From positions 1-57,405 of IMG/VR virus record IMGVR_UViG_3300044609_000868: 57,405 nucleotides of DNA, one strand, 5' to 3'. This stretch comes from a virus. This document shows positions 4,932 through 54,921 of the stretch, in pieces. Both the position numbers and the translations under genes were made by a program. How positions within the stretch are numbered: position 1 is the first letter of the stretch; every line of letters begins with the position of its first letter. Under the pieces are notes generated by a model, which saw only the letters and a list, made by a program, of their open reading frames with translations, made no database searches and had not been told where the DNA came from.

Positions 4932-7192
4932 TGGACGAGCTCAAGGAAAAACAACTCGATACCGCAGATGACGAGCGTGCAATGCACGATCTGTCGAATG
5001 AGCAGGTAGCTGCAATCGGCGAAACAGTCGCTGAAGTAGTAGCTGAGCACATGGCTGAGGTGGTCGAGGATGTAATCGAGACGCTGTCCGGCGAGGATCC
5101 CGAAGAGGAGACCGAGGCGGAAGAGGCCGCTGAGGAAGAGGTGATGCCGATGGTCATCGAGCGCGCCAAGCCCGGCGACCTCAAGACCGGTGATTTCGTC
5201 AGCTGGAACAGCTCCGGCGGTCGCGCCCGCGGCCGGATCGAGCACATCATGCGCGAGGGCACGCTTGGTGTGCCGGGCACCGAGTTCAGTATTGATGCAA
5301 CTGAGGACGACCCAGCTGCATTGATCCGCATCTTCAGCGAAGGCGCTGATGGCTGGCAGGCAACTGAGACAATGGTTGGCCACCGCTTCAGCACACTGAG
5401 CAAGATCGATGCGCTCCGATCGATGGAGGGCAAGTACCAGCGCACCGAGGTCACTGCGTTTGCAGAGGTCGAGGATCGCTCCTTTGAGTTTCCTTTCAGT
5501 TCTGAATACCCCGTGGCCCGGTACTTCGGAAACGAAGTACTGAGCCACGAGGGTGAGTCCGCTGATCTGAGCCGTCTTAATGACGGTGCTCCGCTTCTCT
5601 TCAACCACAACCCCGACAAGGTGGTGGGTGTCGTCGAGCGGGCATGGATCGACGGCAAAAAGAAGCGCGGCTACGTCAAGGTCCGCTTCTCACGCAACAG
5701 CTTCGCCAAGGAGGTGATGGCTGATGTCAAGGATGGCGTTCTTCGGGGCGTCAGCTTTGGTTATGCCATCGACAAGATGGAGGAGCGTGGCGACAACTTC
5801 GTAGCCACTCGCTGGAGTCCGTACGAAGTCTCGGTTGTTAGTGTGCCTGCAGATCCGACTATCGGAATCGGCCGGTCGCTTGCGATCGACTCCGCGGCCC
5901 CCGCCGCATCACCAACCCCTCAAGAACCTGAGGTTCACATGGAGAACACCACCCCTGACGTGGAGGTGATCCGGTCCAAGGCCGTCGAGGCCGAGCGCAG
6001 CCGTATCGCTTCCATTACCGCCCTCGGCGACAAGCACGGCATGACCGAGCTTGCACGTGAGCTCATCGACGGTGGCCGCAGCCTCGACGAGGCCCGTGCT
6101 GCCTTCCTCGAAAAAATCGACACCCGCAGCACCAAAGTGGAGCACCGCATCGAATCGACCAAAGAGGTCGGCCTCAACGAGAAGGAGACCCGCAGCTATT
6201 CCTTCCTGCGCGCCCTGAACTATCTCGCCAACCCCGGCGACAAGCAGGCTGCTGAAGCTGCTGCTTTCGAGCGCGAGATCTCCGAGGCTGCATCCAAGGC
6301 TTACGGCAAGCCCGCCAACGGTCTGATGGTGCCCAACGAGGTGCTCCGTCGTGACCTGACTGCCGGCACCAACAGCGCTGGTGGTTTCACCGTCGCAACC
6401 GACCTGCTGGCCGGCTCCTTCATCGAGCTGCTGCGCAACCGCCTGGCTCTGGCCAATGTCGGCGCCACCGTGCTGAACGGCCTGCAGGGCAACGTGGCAA
6501 TCCCCAAGCAGACCGGTGCCGCCACTGCCTACTGGGTGGGTGAAGGCTCTGCTCCTACCGAGAGCCAGGAAACCCTCGGTCAGGTGACTATGTCACCCAA
6601 GACCGTCGGCGCTTTCGTCGACTACAGCCGCCGCCTGCTGCTCCAGTCCTCCGTGGATGTTGAGCAGATGGTCCGCAACGACCTCGCTCGCGTGATCGCC
6701 CTCGAGATCGACCGCGCTGGTCTGTATGGCTCCGGCTCCAGCAACCAGCCTCTGGGTCTGATCAACACCGCTGGCATCAACACCGTGTCCCTGACCGGCT
6801 ACGGCACCTTCGCCGAGCTGGTGAGCATGGAGACCGAGGTGGCCAAGGACAACGCCGACATCGGCGCCATGCGCTACCTGATGAACGCCTCTGCCCGCGG
6901 CGCTCTGAAGACCACCGCCAAGTCCGCCTCCGCCGTAGCCGCCGGCTTCGTGTACGAGGACGACGAGGTGAACGGCTACCCCGTCGTGCTGTCCAACCAG
7001 CTGCTGCTGGACGACATCGTGTTCGGCGCCTTCAACCAGATGATCCTGGGCATGTGGTCTGGTCTCGACCTGACCCTCGATCCCTACGCCGGCGCCACCA
7101 GCGGCACCGTGCGCATCATCGCTCTGCAGGATGTCGACTTCGCTGTGAAGCAGGCCGGCGCCTTCTGCTACGGCACCGGCGCTCTGTCCTGA
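4931..7192 (+). CDS. Fused prohead protease and major capsid protein (HK97 type)
   Basis: 753 aa polyprotein. Residues 1-75 are acidic and helical. Residues about 79-135 (KTGDFVSWNSSGGRARGRIEH) resemble a small Tudor-like barrel. Residues about 165-325 are an S78-type prohead protease, with a catalytic-type His in FNHNPDKVVG (His226), Ser in GVSFGYAID (Ser275) and the SPYEVSVVSVPADP strand. Residues about 337-440 are a helical delta/scaffold-like region and about 465-753 the HK97-fold capsid (GGFTVATDL, PKQTGAATAYWVGE). An internal ATG at 5939 preceded by GAGG could also give a 417-aa capsid precursor lacking the protease. Codon use in the capsid part is strongly C-ending, as for a highly expressed gene. 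Confidence 0.93.
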   Translation: MDELKEKQLDTADDERAMHDLSNEQVAAIGETVAEVVAEHMAEVVEDVIETLSGEDPEEETEAEEAAEEEVMPMVIERAKPGDLKTGDFVSWNSSGGRARGRIEHIMREGTLGVPGTEFSIDATEDDPAALIRIFSEGADGWQATETMVGHRFSTLSKIDALRSMEGKYQRTEVTAFAEVEDRSFEFPFSSEYPVARYFGNEVLSHEGESADLSRLNDGAPLLFNHNPDKVVGVVERAWIDGKKKRGYVKVRFSRNSFAKEVMADVKDGVLRGVSFGYAIDKMEERGDNFVATRWSPYEVSVVSVPADPTIGIGRSLAIDSAAPAASPTPQEPEVHMENTTPDVEVIRSKAVEAERSRIASITALGDKHGMTELARELIDGGRSLDEARAAFLEKIDTRSTKVEHRIESTKEVGLNEKETRSYSFLRALNYLANPGDKQAAEAAAFEREISEAASKAYGKPANGLMVPNEVLRRDLTAGTNSAGGFTVATDLLAGSFIELLRNRLALANVGATVLNGLQGNVAIPKQTGAATAYWVGEGSAPTESQETLGQVTMSPKTVGAFVDYSRRLLLQSSVDVEQMVRNDLARVIALEIDRAGLYGSGSSNQPLGLINTAGINTVSLTGYGTFAELVSMETEVAKDNADIGAMRYLMNASARGALKTTAKSASAVAAGFVYEDDEVNGYPVVLSNQLLLDDIVFGAFNQMILGMWSGLDLTLDPYAGATSGTVRIIALQDVDFAVKQAGAFCYGTGALS
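5930..5941 (+). promoter_or_regulatory. Possible internal ribosome-binding site and start for capsid precursor
   Basis: GAGG at 5930-5933 lies five bases before an in-frame ATG at 5939, exactly at the junction between the protease part and the delta-like region of the fused capsid gene. In-frame internal starts are used by lambda C/Nu3. Use here is inferred. Confidence 0.45.
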
Positions 7193-9132: not shown

Positions 9133-10021
9133 ATCCACTTACGCAACAGACTCGACGCCGGCTGGCACTGACGCCGTCCTGGTGCGGAATCTGGAAATCA
9201 CGCCGCTTGAAGCCGACACGGTTTCGCGCGACCTGATCCGCCCTTATCTCGGCAACTCCGAGGTCCTGCTGGGCAACATCCGCGTCGGCATCACCTTCCA
9301 GGTGGAGCTCGCCGGTTCTGGCGTGGCTGGAACTGCGCCCAAGTACGGCGCTCTGCTGAAGGCTTGCGGCCTGAGCGAGACCGTTGTTGCAACCACCAGC
9401 GTGACCTATGCGCCGGTATCCAGCAGCTTCAGCTCGGCCACCATCTACTTCAACAACGATGGCGTGCTGCACAAGGCCACTGGCTGCCGCGGCACCTTCA
9501 CGATCAGCGCTGAGCTGGGCCAGATTCCGACCATCGACTTCACGATGACCGGCATCTACAACGCCCCCACCGACACGGCTGCGCCTTCGGTGACCTATGC
9601 CGCCCAGGCCACTCCGCTGATCTTCAAGGAAGGCAACACCTCCAACTTCAGCCTGCTGTCCTACAGCGGCTGCCTGATGTCGGTGAACTTCGACATCGCC
9701 AACGAGGTGGTGTATCGCGAGCTGATCGGCTGCACCAAGCAGGTGCTGATCACTAACCGCGCCCCCGCTGGCGAGTGCGTGATCGAGGCTCCGACCATTG
9801 CAGCGAAGGACTTCTTCGCCGTTGCAGGAAGCAACACAACCGGCAGCCTGACCTTCACCCACGGAACCGCAGCCGGCAACACCGTGGCCTTCACCGCTCA
9901 GAACGTCGACATTGGACAACCCTCGTATAGTGACAGCGACGGCATCCAAATGCTGAACCTGCCCTACGTGGCCATTCCGACCACCGCTGGCAACGACGAG
10001 CTCTCGCTCGTATACACCTGA
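9089..10021 (+). CDS. Major tail tube protein (gpV-like)
   Basis: 310 aa, beta-rich, Thr/Ser/Gly-rich, with a smooth C-ending codon bias like the capsid gene, as expected for an abundant structural protein. It forms the non-contractile tail tube that carries DNA. Residues 1-180 give the tube domain (LILAKTESTYATDSTPAGTDA at the start, then FQVELAGSG). Residues 190-310 may be an Ig-like surface addition. It precedes the tail chaperone pair as in lambda (V, G, GT, H). Confidence 0.75.
   Translation: MPLLTRKRLILAKTESTYATDSTPAGTDAVLVRNLEITPLEADTVSRDLIRPYLGNSEVLLGNIRVGITFQVELAGSGVAGTAPKYGALLKACGLSETVVATTSVTYAPVSSSFSSATIYFNNDGVLHKATGCRGTFTISAELGQIPTIDFTMTGIYNAPTDTAAPSVTYAAQATPLIFKEGNTSNFSLLSYSGCLMSVNFDIANEVVYRELIGCTKQVLITNRAPAGECVIEAPTIAAKDFFAVAGSNTTGSLTFTHGTAAGNTVAFTAQNVDIGQPSYSDSDGIQMLNLPYVAIPTTAGNDELSLVYT
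9158..9175. repeat. 18-bp direct repeat, copy 2
   Basis: Exact copy of the 18 bases at 42-59, here encoding part of the tail tube N-terminus (residues about 24-29). Confidence 0.6.
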
Positions 10022-37480: not shown

Positions 37481-37808
37481 CGAGCGCCTCCAGTGCGCGG
37501 CGGATGACTGCCATGGCCGTCTGATCATCCGTGCCAGCCTCAACGGCAGCCCAAGCCTGCAAGGCTCGCTCCTTCAAGCTCGGCGGCTTGGGGCGGCGGA
37601 GGCGGCGTAGTTCAGCGCCCCACTCTCTGCCGTGCCCGATCTCACGCTCAACCCACTCACAGCACGCCTCCAGCTCTTGATCAGCACCCCAGCGGGCAAA
37701 GCGCGTGGCGATGAACTGCTCATAAGTCATTTCCGCCGGGGTGGATGGATTGCTGCGCAGAAAAGCCTGCACTAGCTGCGGCGGCGGAGTGATCAGGTGG
37801 TCAGTCAC
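37473..37808 (-). CDS. RPKPxSLKE-family small protein, copy 2
   Basis: 111 aa. YEQFIATRFARWGADQELEA, then CCEWVEREIG, then RRPKPPSLKERALQAW and AVIRRALEALDD. Paralogue of the 36611 product (see shared motifs there). ATGA overlap with the alpha-CTD-like gene upstream. Function unknown. Confidence 0.6.
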   Translation of the reverse strand: MTDHLITPPPQLVQAFLRSNPSTPAEMTYEQFIATRFARWGADQELEACCEWVEREIGHGREWGAELRRLRRPKPPSLKERALQAWAAVEAGTDDQTAMAVIRRALEALDD

Positions 37809-38194
37809 GCCTCCACCTCCGACGGCATCAACATCTGCCGGATCCGGGCAGCGGTAAACGGCCCGCGGGAGATCCGATTCCAGATCACCTTCATGGCCAC
37901 CACGGCCTCCTGGTCAGCCATGCAGCTGCCGCATTCGTCCAACGCCCTGCTGACGGCCTCATGCGTCTCGCGGTAGAGCACCGGGTCGGTCTGCATCAGT
38001 GCATCGCGCCAGGTGGCAACCTCGCTCAGCGCCTGCATGCCGAAATTCTTCAGCTGCATCAGCTCTGCCGAGCTGGCCATCATGACCTGCTCAGCAGTGA
38101 ACAGGCCACCACGAAGCAGTGCGTTCTGCGTGCGGACTGACATGTACTTGGCAGTCTCCGGCACCAGCCGGAAGTCGTCTTCAGTTGGGTGCAT
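37805..38194 (-). CDS. Protein with RNA polymerase alpha-CTD-like helix-hairpin-helix
   Basis: 129 aa. Residues about 17-58 (MSVRTQNALLRGGLFTAEQV then SSAELMQLKNFGMQALSEV) closely follow the helix-hairpin-helix pattern of the RNA polymerase alpha C-terminal domain, which reads LSVRxxNxLxRxxIxTxxDL...LLxIxNFGxKSxxEV. In host RNAP this domain binds UP elements and activators. A free phage copy might compete for or redirect these contacts. The C-terminal half (ECGSCMADQEAVVAMKVIWN) is unknown. Confidence 0.65.
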   Translation of the reverse strand: MHPTEDDFRLVPETAKYMSVRTQNALLRGGLFTAEQVMMASSAELMQLKNFGMQALSEVATWRDALMQTDPVLYRETHEAVSRALDECGSCMADQEAVVAMKVIWNRISRGPFTAARIRQMLMPSEVEA

Positions 38195-38755: not shown

Positions 38756-39238
38756 TCACACTTCGTAAAAACTGCAGTCAGCCGCGAAGCTGGTGCCCTC
38801 GTCGAGCGGGTCCGGGAAGCCCAGTTCGCAGCCGACACCGCCCCAGTGCTGGCATTCGGTGCAATCGCGCCACTGCGGCCGCCGCTTCAAGCTCGGGAAC
38901 ACCTTCGTCCAGGTCTTGCCAGCTCGGATCTGCTGAATCGCCTGGCGCGACACACCGAGCTCGGCGGCCAGAGCAACGTCCGAGGTTTGCCGATCGGTCA
39001 GCGCGCGGCGGACGTGCGCCAGATCAAGCTTCTTTCGTCTTGGCTTGCCAGGCCCGCGTCGCCGCCGGCGCTTCTTTCTGTCAGGCCCGAACACAGTCCA
39101 GCGCTCACCGCAGTCACTGCACTCCCACCGGCGACGGATCAAGCCATCGGCGCGGGTACGTGTTTCACGGACAAAACGGTTGTTGTGCTCACAGACAGGC
39201 GTGTCTAGCGTTGATGAATCATCGCTGTTGAACTCCAT
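38756..39238 (-). CDS. DNA-binding protein with Zn-finger, HTH and C..C.HW motif
   Basis: 160 aa. Zn-ribbon-like Cys/His pairs near the start (VCEH...WECSDCGERW), then a strongly basic linker (RKKRRRRRGPGKPRRKK), a helix-turn-helix (DVALAAELGVSRQAIQQIRAG) and a C-terminal CTECQHWGGVGCELGFP...FAADCSFYEV module like that of the 34621 product. A transcription or DNA-maintenance role is likely. Its start codon shares the palindrome CATG (39236-39239) with a gene on the other strand. Confidence 0.65.
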   Translation of the reverse strand: MEFNSDDSSTLDTPVCEHNNRFVRETRTRADGLIRRRWECSDCGERWTVFGPDRKKRRRRRGPGKPRRKKLDLAHVRRALTDRQTSDVALAAELGVSRQAIQQIRAGKTWTKVFPSLKRRPQWRDCTECQHWGGVGCELGFPDPLDEGTSFAADCSFYEV

Positions 39239-52287: not shown

Positions 52288-52488
52288 ATGGCCACCACCT
52301 ACATCACTCGAGCAGCTCGGGTGCGGATCATCGACAGCATGCTTGATGCCATGCTCGAGGTCGGCGACATCACCGACAAGCAGATCGCCGAGACCGAGGC
52401 GTGGCTCGCCGGCCTGAGCAACAGCGAGCTCCGGCGTGAGTGCGACGATCGTTGCCCCGAAGAGTGGAGCCGTTTGGTATGCGACTAA
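52288..52488 (+). CDS. Hypothetical small protein, tandem paralogue 1
   Basis: 66 aa helical protein: ARVRIIDSMLDAMLEVGDIT, QIAETEAWLAGLSNSELRRE and CPEEWSRLVCD. Its end (SNSELRRECDDRCPEEW) parallels that of the next gene (SDEDLHEVCEELAPEAW), so the two look like diverged tandem copies. Confidence 0.6.
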   Translation: MATTYITRAARVRIIDSMLDAMLEVGDITDKQIAETEAWLAGLSNSELRRECDDRCPEEWSRLVCD

Positions 52489-52655
52489 AAGCACTCACCG
52501 AAGACCAGCGCATCAACATCGTGGCGGCCCTGGTGAAGCGCAGGCACATCGTTGAAGACCAGATGCTGCAGGCTCGTGACGACCTGATGGAGGCGAGCGA
52601 CGAAGACCTGCACGAGGTCTGCGAGGAGCTCGCACCGGAGGCGTGGCCGACTTGA
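52479..52655 (+). CDS. Hypothetical small protein, tandem paralogue 2
   Basis: 58 aa from ATG 52479, overlapping the previous stop by 10 nt. LTEDQRINIVAALVKRRHIV, then DDLMEASDEDLHEVCEELAP. Helical and acidic, related to the upstream product in its C-terminal half. Function unknown. Confidence 0.6.
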   Translation: MRLKALTEDQRINIVAALVKRRHIVEDQMLQARDDLMEASDEDLHEVCEELAPEAWPT

Positions 52656-52656
52656 G

Positions 52657-52706
52657 GGGACCCGCGGCATGCCGGCTTTTAGGGACTCGCAGGGGGTCGG
52701 CTTTTA
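52657..52706. repeat. Tandem imperfect 25-bp repeats
   Basis: Two 25-bp units (52657-52681 and 52682-52706) each start GGGAC and end CGGCTTTTA. The first includes the palindrome CGGCATGCCG followed by TTTT, so it may act as a weak terminator of the preceding genes. Confidence 0.5.
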
Positions 52707-52834
52707 AAGGGGGTATTTAGAAATGTTTTTACACACACAAATCGAACCTTTTCAAAGCTCGTTTGCCGCCGTAGTCATATAAGGCTGCGGCGCATTACTA
52801 TAGTGTAGTGCTGCAAAAAAAAACAGATAGACCC

Positions 52835-52914
52835 GTACATATGTACTACAGTAGTACAAATGTACTATAGTGCTGATGTACTAGAGTACATGCGTACTAT
52901 TGGTACTGATGTAC
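52835..52914. repeat. GTAC array, nine copies phased near 8 bp
   Basis: GTAC begins at 52835, 52843, 52854, 52862, 52878, 52886, 52894, 52903 and 52911 (steps 8, 11, 8, 16, 8, 8, 9, 8). Five neighbouring pairs give GTAC-N4-GTAC, a short palindromic form. About 0.3 copies would be expected by chance in 80 bp. Function unknown; options include operator, origin, partition or methylation site. Confidence 0.8.
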
Positions 52915-52933
52915 CAATGCGGCCATGCCGCTG

Positions 52934-52955
52934 CCGTTATGGGTTGCCATAACGG
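52934..52955. repeat. Perfect 9-bp inverted repeat (hairpin)
   Basis: CCGTTATGG and CCATAACGG separated by GTTG, 20 bp after the GTAC array. No T-run follows, so a binding site or cruciform is likelier than a terminator. Confidence 0.65.
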
Positions 52956-53310
52956 TATTGTTGTGGGCAGTTAGCTACTCAAACTGTTGCTACCAAAGCT
53001 ACAAAAAAACAGCGCGGCCGGTTTGAGATGCGCAGCGCGGCTACGGTGCGGGACCGTTAGCGCAACCCTGCGCAGCGTTTGCTACTGCTACTGTTCGCCG
53101 CTGTTTGTGATGCAAACTGCGCGGTGCGGCTGGCGGCCGGTGTGCGGTGCGCCCCATGCAGGGCGACCTGTGCGCACGGTGCCTGGGGTGCATGTGCCGG
53201 CAGCAACCGGGCCGCCCGGATATCTGGCACAGCCGCCCAGGAGATGGGTTGCCTAGTGGCGGGGGCGCTACCTATAAAGGGCGGGTATCACTCTTTATCT
53301 GTTACCTGCC

Positions 53311-54921
53311 ATGGCCAAGACCCGCACGATCGTTGCCATCGATCCCGCAACGGGCGCCCGCGTCACCCGTCGCACCGCGCGCACCTATTACGCGGCCATC
53401 GTTTGCACCCTGAGCAGCGGAGCCCCATACGCATATGCGTGGGCGGGCCGCGCTGATCTCGCCGCCGCTCAGCTGGCTAAATATCAGCGCTGCTGCCCTG
53501 ATGGTGGCGCCCGGCTTGCCCTCGTGACTGAGGATCCCTGGGCTGAGGCCCCGGCCGCCGCCGCTGTGGCGGCTGAGCCTGAGGCTGCCCCGGTCGCGGT
53601 TGCTGAGCCTGAGGCCGCACCGGTTAACGGCTGCCGCCTGGCTGGCGATGCTCGCCACCTGTTTGCCCTGTTCGCCCGCCGCTACAGCCTGACGACTCCC
53701 CAGTGCTTTGCCTTGCAATCCGAGGCCCTGGGCTGGGCGCGGCGTGTGGCCCTGTGGTGCAACGGTCAGCCCCTGGCCGGCCCGTTCGGTGCGCTCACCC
53801 CTGGCCTGGCCCGCAGGGGTGTGATCACGCTGCAGGGCGCCCGCCGTTCCTGGGCGCCTGATGCCTTGGCTGAGCTTTGGGCGGTTGCTCAGGCTCAGGC
53901 CGCGGCCGAGGGGTTGCGCCCCCTGGCTGCCGTTGCTGAGGCTTGCCCCTCGTCTGCTCTGCCGGTTGAGGCTGAGCTGAGCCCCGCTGTGGTTGCTGAG
54001 CCTGAGGCTGTGGCTCAGCTGGGGTTCGCCACCCTCAACCCTGAAACCGAAAGCTGGGCGGAGGATCTGCCGGCAGACTGCTACCCGCCCGCCCGCTCCC
54101 GGCCCGCGCTGCCGGTTGAGGCCCGCCCAGCCGCCACACCTGAACCCCTCGCCCAGGTGGAGATTGACCCTTACAAGCGGGGCCACTGGCAGCGAACAGC
54201 GATCGGTCCCGACCCTGTGGCGGTTGCTGAGCGCAGGGCAGCCAGGTGGGCTGAGCGCAACCCTGAGCACTCCTACCGGGTGGTGGCGGTGCCTGCCCGC
54301 CCGGTGCTGCAGGGTGAGACTGAGCCCCCGGCCTCGGTTGCGCAGGATGGCCCGGCCCCTGAGCTGCCCCGCCTGCGCGCTGATGCCGCAGCCGGCCGGC
54401 CTGTCAGCCTCACCGCCCTTGCCCGCGCCTTGGCTGCCGACCTGGCCACACCAGCGCCCACCCCTGACGGCCTGCGCGCAAGGGCAGCGGTGCGGGGTGC
54501 CGAGGCTGAGCGGGTGGCCGGTGCTGAGCCATCCCGCGCCCAGGCTGCCGCTGATCAGGCCAGCACTCTGACCGCATGGGCTGACAGCCTGAGCCCCTCG
54601 CCCACGGGCGACGCCTGGGCGGGGCAACCGTGGGACCCTGGCACCCCTGACGCCCGCGCGCGGGTAGCGCTGCAGGGTGAGCGTGTGGCGACCCTGTGGC
54701 CGATTGCGCAGGCTGCCAGGGGCGCTGGGTTTGATCTGCCACCCGTGTGGTGGGCGGATGGCCCGATCCTGGCCGGTGAGCGAACCTATGGGGAGGCCCT
54801 GGCTGCTCTGCCCCTGGGCGCAATTGCGGCAGCCGCTGCCGCCCTGGCTGCCCTGCCGCCCGTCACGACTGCGCAGGATCGCGCGCTCAGGCTGTGCCGG
54901 GGCGACCTGGCCGCAGTGTGA
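53311..54921 (+). CDS. Ala/Pro-rich protein of unknown function
   Basis: 536 aa. Residues 1-70 are a compact-looking domain (TIVAIDPATGARVTRRTART, YYAAIVCTLSSGAPYAYAWA). Then Ala/Pro/Glu-rich linkers with AEPEAAPV and LPVEA repeats alternate with helical blocks (HLFALFARRYSLTTPQCFAL, WARRVALWCNGQPLAGPFGA). Codons are extremely GC-rich, and the opposite strand is open too. It shares a TTACCTG...CCATG leader with the 55034 gene. I recognise no family. It heads the right-end cassette. Confidence 0.6.
   Translation: MAKTRTIVAIDPATGARVTRRTARTYYAAIVCTLSSGAPYAYAWAGRADLAAAQLAKYQRCCPDGGARLALVTEDPWAEAPAAAAVAAEPEAAPVAVAEPEAAPVNGCRLAGDARHLFALFARRYSLTTPQCFALQSEALGWARRVALWCNGQPLAGPFGALTPGLARRGVITLQGARRSWAPDALAELWAVAQAQAAAEGLRPLAAVAEACPSSALPVEAELSPAVVAEPEAVAQLGFATLNPETESWAEDLPADCYPPARSRPALPVEARPAATPEPLAQVEIDPYKRGHWQRTAIGPDPVAVAERRAARWAERNPEHSYRVVAVPARPVLQGETEPPASVAQDGPAPELPRLRADAAAGRPVSLTALARALAADLATPAPTPDGLRARAAVRGAEAERVAGAEPSRAQAAADQASTLTAWADSLSPSPTGDAWAGQPWDPGTPDARARVALQGERVATLWPIAQAARGAGFDLPPVWWADGPILAGERTYGEALAALPLGAIAAAAAALAALPPVTTAQDRALRLCRGDLAAV

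Follow-up and report, generated by a model that had tools for sequence, protein, structure and literature searches.

The window, that is, the whole stretch of DNA analysed here, is the viral IMG/VR record IMGVR_UViG_3300044609_000868, positions 1–57,405, with a length of 57,405 bp. It codes for terminase, portal, capsid and tail proteins, an endolysin and a thymidylate synthase and, in addition, for a tyrosine integrase, RecT-like and exonuclease VIII-like proteins, an SSB, a helicase and a primase. By protein comparison, the nearest isolates include the Synechococcus phages S-LBS1 (terminase, 45% identity) and S-H1 (primase, 41%). We infer a host of the picocyanobacterial type, with the nearest isolates at just 41–45% protein identity. 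In a search for the phage as a prophage, the tail protein of the window found no match in 386 Cyanobacteriota genomes, and its integrase found only distant ones. Two genes on the minus strand may encode phage transcription factors: a small protein whose domain resembles the C-terminal one of RNA polymerase alpha (37805–38194) and a protein that combines an NrdR-like zinc ribbon with a helix-turn-helix (38756–39238).

The region of interest lies near the right end of the record. Its features are as follows; ranks and bit scores of the boxes refer to a published LexA matrix applied to the window.

52288..52488, plus strand: gene for a small acidic protein of 66 aa with four helices, upstream of the array (AF2 pLDDT 85)
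52479..52655, plus strand: gene for a related small protein of 58 aa
52658..52706, plus strand: two direct repeats of the GGGACYYGC...YCGGYTTTTA type before the array, which the aligned relatives retain whether or not they have the array
52815–52823: A9 run
52834..52847, plus strand: LexA-type box 1, CGTACATATGTACT, rank 2, 22.3 bits
52853..52866, plus strand: LexA-type box 2, AGTACAAATGTACT, intact AGTAC/GTACT, rank 1, 23.7 bits
52869..52882, plus strand: LexA-type box 3, AGTGCTGATGTACT, one half damaged, rank 5, 13.5 bits
52885..52898, minus strand: LexA-type box 4, AGTACATGCGTACT (plus-strand reading), rank 3, 20.5 bits
52902..52915, plus strand: LexA-type box 5, GGTACTGATGTACC, rank 4, 14.5 bits
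52932..52957, plus strand: terminator-like hairpin after the array, with a 9-bp stem at 52934–52955, scored as an 11-pair stem
53311..54921, plus strand: first gene of a variable GC-rich downstream cassette (536 aa), with a homologue after the array in locus L005
56194..57315, plus strand: GP88-like gene (PF17338, 1.3e-10), followed in relatives by terS and terL

The interval 52656–53310 contains no convincing gene, in agreement with the preliminary description, which had placed nine GTAC motifs in a long non-coding region. The recount reproduced these motifs exactly, with starts at 52835, 52843, 52854, 52862, 52878, 52886, 52894, 52903 and 52911 and steps of 8, 11, 8, 16, 8, 8, 9 and 8. Their density is indeed far above chance: 60 simulated 57-kb sequences with the dinucleotide statistics of the window gave a maximum of three GTAC per 80 bp. 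Only the cluster is unusual, as GTAC is not clearly enriched across the window (86 observed versus 74 expected). The palindromic GTAC-N4-GTAC pairs noted before are real, but GTAC is not the unit; the true unit is a 14-bp dyad, AGTAC-N4-GTACT. The array comprises four intact dyads with the consensus AGTACA-N2-TGTACT and one damaged dyad, in which one half reads GTGC, and the dyad centres are, in array order, 19, 16, 16 and 17 bp apart. The 8-bp step is thus the half-site distance inside a dyad and also, where dyads are 16 bp apart, the distance between neighbours. The damaged box 3 is weak taken alone and stands in register with its neighbours at 16 bp. The idea of a protein-binding array in a non-coding region therefore stands, whereas the proposed wrapping or filament-forming protein, a reading that arose because GTAC was taken as the unit, was rejected: a 14-bp dyad is an ordinary dimer site, and a spacing of 16 bp is simple dimer packing.

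A cluster of GTAC sites for methylation or restriction, or a chance or low-complexity repeat, has in its favour that GTAC is a possible modification site and that 16-bp units can grow by slippage. These explanations are extremely improbable. Chance is excluded by the simulations, and the boxes diverge between phages yet keep the dyad. The suggested methylation cluster also found no backing in the scanned open reading frames, none of which encodes a methyltransferase, or in the rest of the window, where GTAC is neither clearly enriched nor depleted. Moreover, conservation goes past GTAC to the flanking A/T and to the inner A..T positions.

The NtcA site is GTA-N8-TAC, a spacing that does not fit the array, which has GTA-N6-TAC. 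RNA hairpins were rejected as well; the dyad takes in positions 6/9 and would leave a loop of 2 nt, and therefore a DNA symmetry fits better. The published LexA (SOS) box of cyanobacteria is RGTACNNNDGTWCB as determined experimentally in Nostoc and AGTACWNWTGTACT as derived from phylogenetic footprints (PMC3091678). When 48 published LexA boxes of cyanobacteria (PMC3091678) were turned into a scoring matrix, the five dyads of the array took ranks 1–5 in the 57-kb window, and the top three (23.7, 22.3 and 20.5 bits) scored above any site in the 60 simulated genomes (at most 17.7) and above the median of the known boxes (18.7). Inspection by eye shows that four of the five agree with the strict experimental consensus on at least one strand, and box 1 differs by one base from the recA box of Synechococcus WH7803, CGTACATCTGTACT (PMC3091678). 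The inner N4 bases, which no search imposed, correlated with those of the published LexA boxes at r = 0.97 in the clade of the window and at 0.84 in other cyanophage arrays, compared with 0.34 for the tandem AGTACN4GTACT matches in a set of prophages of isolate genomes and −0.11 for those in Bacteroidota and other bacterial genomes. Bacteroidota dominated the pattern matches in genome contigs (L103–L220; e.g., Phocaeicola, Bacteroides and Prevotella): many of their genomes have such tandem dyads about 22 bp apart at several loci each, with other inner bases, and these represent a separate motif.

On these sequence criteria, the array dyads are five back-to-back copies of the cyanobacterial LexA box, with which they share the 14-bp dyad, the half-site and the inner A..T preference. 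The view that no phage element of such a form had been described was hence too strong. Published host genes are listed with single boxes (PMC3091678), whereas the viral array has five, 16–19 bp apart. Cyanophage arrays of this size appear to be undescribed in the literature searched, although the use of host LexA by a phage is known (GIL01).

Boxes of the same type are found in host-type genomes. In many of 30 Cyanobacteriota loci, they lie directly in front of lexA, and the boxes GGTACGCTTGTACT, GGTACGTCTGTACT and AGTACGAGCGTACT are located upstream of recA in three genomes of the picocyanobacterial type (56–62% GC, 2.4–2.5 Mb). In all three, the best match near lexA sits just upstream of that gene, and in two, boxes precede umuD-like genes by 113–117 bp. 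Genomes G328 and G207 thus have boxes at recA, lexA and umuD-like genes, and G270 at recA and lexA. Exact boxes number just two to five per whole genome in this set of 56–62% GC. Many other genomes sampled for recA were of low GC and lacked a box at this gene; they probably do not belong to the picocyanobacteria, and therefore the host evidence comes from few genomes. In marine Synechococcus, mitomycin C induces recA, lexA and umuC (PMC3744912).

Conservation in related phages was assessed in several ways. The array was present in the same interval in two loci found by the tail protein (L002 and L003) and in one found by the pattern (L005). A primase search, which is independent of the array, yielded 22 loci, in nine of which (L378, L379, L382, L383, L384, L386, L391, L392 and L394) an array follows the primase by 2.4–4.8 kb. 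Each of the nine contains 2–10 boxes above threshold; box number and spacing vary, and the dyads persist. Where primase identity is 73% or higher and the flanks are long enough, every relative (seven of seven) has the array, which bears out the expected conservation; two relatives below 73% have it as well. When neutral drift was simulated from the boxes of the window, at least two strong boxes survived in 0.3% of the runs for a divergence of 34% and in 5% for one of 20%. The array is absent from six more distant primase-found loci with enough sequence (L380, L381, L385, L396, L397 and L398). The preliminary description had held that relatives with the same flanking genes but no array would count against it. 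Such relatives exist in part: the close clade keeps the array, whereas the more distant L099, L100, L102, L380 and L398 have the flanking genes without it.

In one relative (L386), a 64-bp unit with three boxes is repeated 2.9 times. The largest array seen, on the viral contig L036 (575–849), consists of about 17 LexA-like dyads, mostly 16 bp apart and many of them degenerate.

Loci L099, L100 and L102 share the cassette genes with the window, and other repeats, e.g., dyads of the TGCGATTGCA type, replace the array. These TGCGATTGCA-like repeated dyads are located as follows.

L099, 4980–5060: repeated dyads in place of the array
L102, 4010–4100: repeated dyads in place of the array
L100, 5130–5250: repeated dyads in place of the array

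Because the array and other repeats alternate at one place, the interval gives the impression of an exchangeable regulatory module. This exchange, as if the specificity of a repressor had been swapped, would also suit a different reading, namely that the array is bound by a protein of the phage (a repressor, a late activator or a mimic of LexA) and resembles LexA boxes through convergence or through a captured LexA-type domain. The position of the array and its co-direction with the genes suit a phage operator, and the phage encodes small proteins without assignment as well as helix-turn-helix proteins (the one at 38756–39238 and an HTH_17 protein). Yet the box recurs with its inner bases in unrelated cyanophages (S-CBS4-like, S-CRES3-like and S-LBS1-like) and at host recA, lexA and umuD-like genes, and none of the phage proteins scanned showed a LexA-type domain, so that we regard a phage-encoded binding protein as improbable.

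The gene order in four relatives (L379, L391, L392 and L394) places the array in a wider context. There, the primase, a tail-completion gene, the array, the variable cassette, the GP88-like gene and the terminase genes follow each other on one strand; therefore, the end of the window probably joins its start. The array is probably the entry point of a cassette-packaging block, as judged from this arrangement. The 536-aa protein encoded by the first cassette gene had no Pfam, PHROG or NCBIfam match. A sequence CTTTATC...CCTGCCATG recurs before cassette genes (L002, 7960–8440; window, about 53290–53311) and is perhaps a common leader or promoter.

The remaining elements around the array are less constant. 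The A9 run before the array and the perfect 9-bp hairpin after it both exist as previously described, but neither is conserved in relatives, and the hairpin is probably incidental. One to three direct repeats of the GGGACTTGCAAGGGGTCGGTTTTTA type precede the array or its replacement in the window and in L002, L003, L005, L088, L092, L044, L099, L100 and L102; the 25-bp direct-repeat pattern, as tested, had a single match in the window. Just downstream of the array, a second dyad, AAACAG-N2-CTGTTT, occurs in L002, L003, L088, L092 and L044 and is perhaps another operator. In the loci given below, but not in the window, the array or its replacement is followed by tandem repeats with a unit of about 26 bp (longer in L100), whose sequences differ from phage to phage.

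L386, 13132–13385: tandem repeats
L003, about 9665–9843: tandem repeats
L099, about 5150–5400: tandem repeats
L100, about 5290–5450: tandem repeats

The tandem repeats that some relatives have behind the array (as at L386 13132–13385), together with the long non-coding region, the AT-rich array and the primase a few kilobases upstream, could indicate part of a replication origin or of a partition site, with the boxes as iterons or as a centromere. Such a role is very unlikely. No ParA, ParB, RHH or initiator protein was found among the scanned window proteins, the units are dyads identical to sites of a host regulator rather than direct iterons, and box number (2–10) and spacing vary freely.

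As for the two small genes upstream of the array, close homologues of the 66-aa protein adjoin the array in other array phages, and the 58-aa protein accompanies it in the window, L003, L005, L088, L092 and L044. The AF2 model of the 66-aa protein gave no fold match. The pair as a LexA cofactor is a weak lead, because distant homologues of the 66-aa protein are not near arrays and the fold search was uninformative.

The distribution of the arrays was explored with a two-box pattern search, which returned 90 viral stretches. Of 89 loci, 59 matched six cyanophage reference genomes, compared with 16 for an equal amount of non-cyanophage reference DNA; for strong matches, the numbers were 42 and 9, respectively. 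Three loci checked by DNA matched almost only cyanophages. In the isolate S-CRES3, four exact boxes and one more strong box lie in and beside two stretches that are sparsely coding or hold short open reading frames; no exact box was present in the isolates S-CBS2, S-CBS4, S-LBS1 and S-H1. A tandem box pair was found in only one of 386 Cyanobacteriota genomes, and therefore the arrangement is chiefly viral. Among long array records, a tyrosine integrase is encoded by the window, G003, G397, G398, G401 and G407; this enzyme, the sole integrase type searched, was not detected in G392–G396, G402–G406 or S-CRES3. The records without it include cyanophage-like ones of 65–75 kb.

These numbers bear on the possibility that the array is a LexA decoy, or sponge: the boxes of replicating phage genomes would titrate LexA and thereby activate repair genes of the host, recA and umuDC among them, to the benefit of phage replication or repair, and no promoter at the array would be needed. 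A complete host genome has two to five exact boxes, a number that the five of the window rival; segmental duplication adds boxes (the 64-bp unit of L386); tandem boxes are a viral trait; and in some phage records with an array no integrase was detected. A decoy, on the other hand, has no need of a conserved position between two gene blocks, which the array holds throughout the clade, and some relatives have only two or three boxes. We consider a decoy possible but rather unlikely; the excess of boxes, their viral distribution and the phages without a detected integrase keep it alive. In its broader form, according to which lytic and temperate cyanophages alike carry expandable LexA-box arrays as a DNA decoy, with replication titrating LexA and hijacking the SOS response, the proposal is unlikely as well. 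If true, the host damage response would be controlled by DNA-based rather than protein-based means.

The reading that we favour, with slightly better than even confidence, is that the array is a multi-site operator for host LexA in a temperate cyanophage and places the late/accessory block downstream under SOS control. From the sequence comparisons we infer that LexA binds, that a promoter is present, which way control runs and what purpose it serves. In an undamaged host, LexA dimers on neighbouring boxes would silence a promoter at the array, which would read rightward through the variable cassette and the GP88-like gene and then, across the record ends, into the terminase/late block. Upon DNA damage or infection, RecA would be activated, LexA would cleave itself, the array would empty and the block would be transcribed, so that phage expression would follow the damage alarm of the host. 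Several close-packed boxes would provide tight repression and a switch-like release, as is the case for the two overlapping SOS boxes of colicins.

No genes for LexA, CI/S24 or Par proteins were found among the phage proteins scanned, many of which are without assignment; an integrase is present. A consensus sigma-70 promoter was not found at the array (promoters of cyanobacterial phages may differ), promoter-like elements near it are not conserved, and boxes are missing from the divergent early region at 45.2 kb. Arrays occur in records without a detected tyrosine integrase, so prophage control cannot explain everything. In addition, box counts of up to 10 (L386) or about 17 weak ones (L036) exceed the needs of an operator, and it counts against a LexA operator that distant relatives have different repeats in this position instead.

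The closest parallel is promoter P1 of the Bacillus phage GIL01, controlled by host LexA and gp7: this phage, as we propose for the present one, is temperate and uses host LexA sites with more than one box; it has no recognised repressor of its own, none having been found among the scanned proteins of the window either, and encodes small proteins nearby (PMC4551915). GIL01 differs in having two boxes, a mapped promoter and a proven cofactor (PMC4551915), compared with up to ten predicted boxes here. Colicin operators likewise contain adjacent SOS boxes, which bind two LexA dimers and tightly repress costly genes, but their box is of the E. coli type and there are two overlapping sites only (PMC2994835).

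Taken together, the results suggest that this virus and many of its relatives are coupled to the DNA-damage alarm of the host via unusually large clusters of host repressor sites. Cyanophages are among the most abundant viruses, and it is poorly known how they sense damage and time their expression; for prophage induction in picocyanobacteria, a molecular handle has been missing. LexA arrays with multiple boxes, which occur in temperate and in apparently non-temperate cyanophages and are nearly absent from the sampled cyanobacterial genomes, offer a testable link between DNA damage by light or UV, the SOS response and phage expression.
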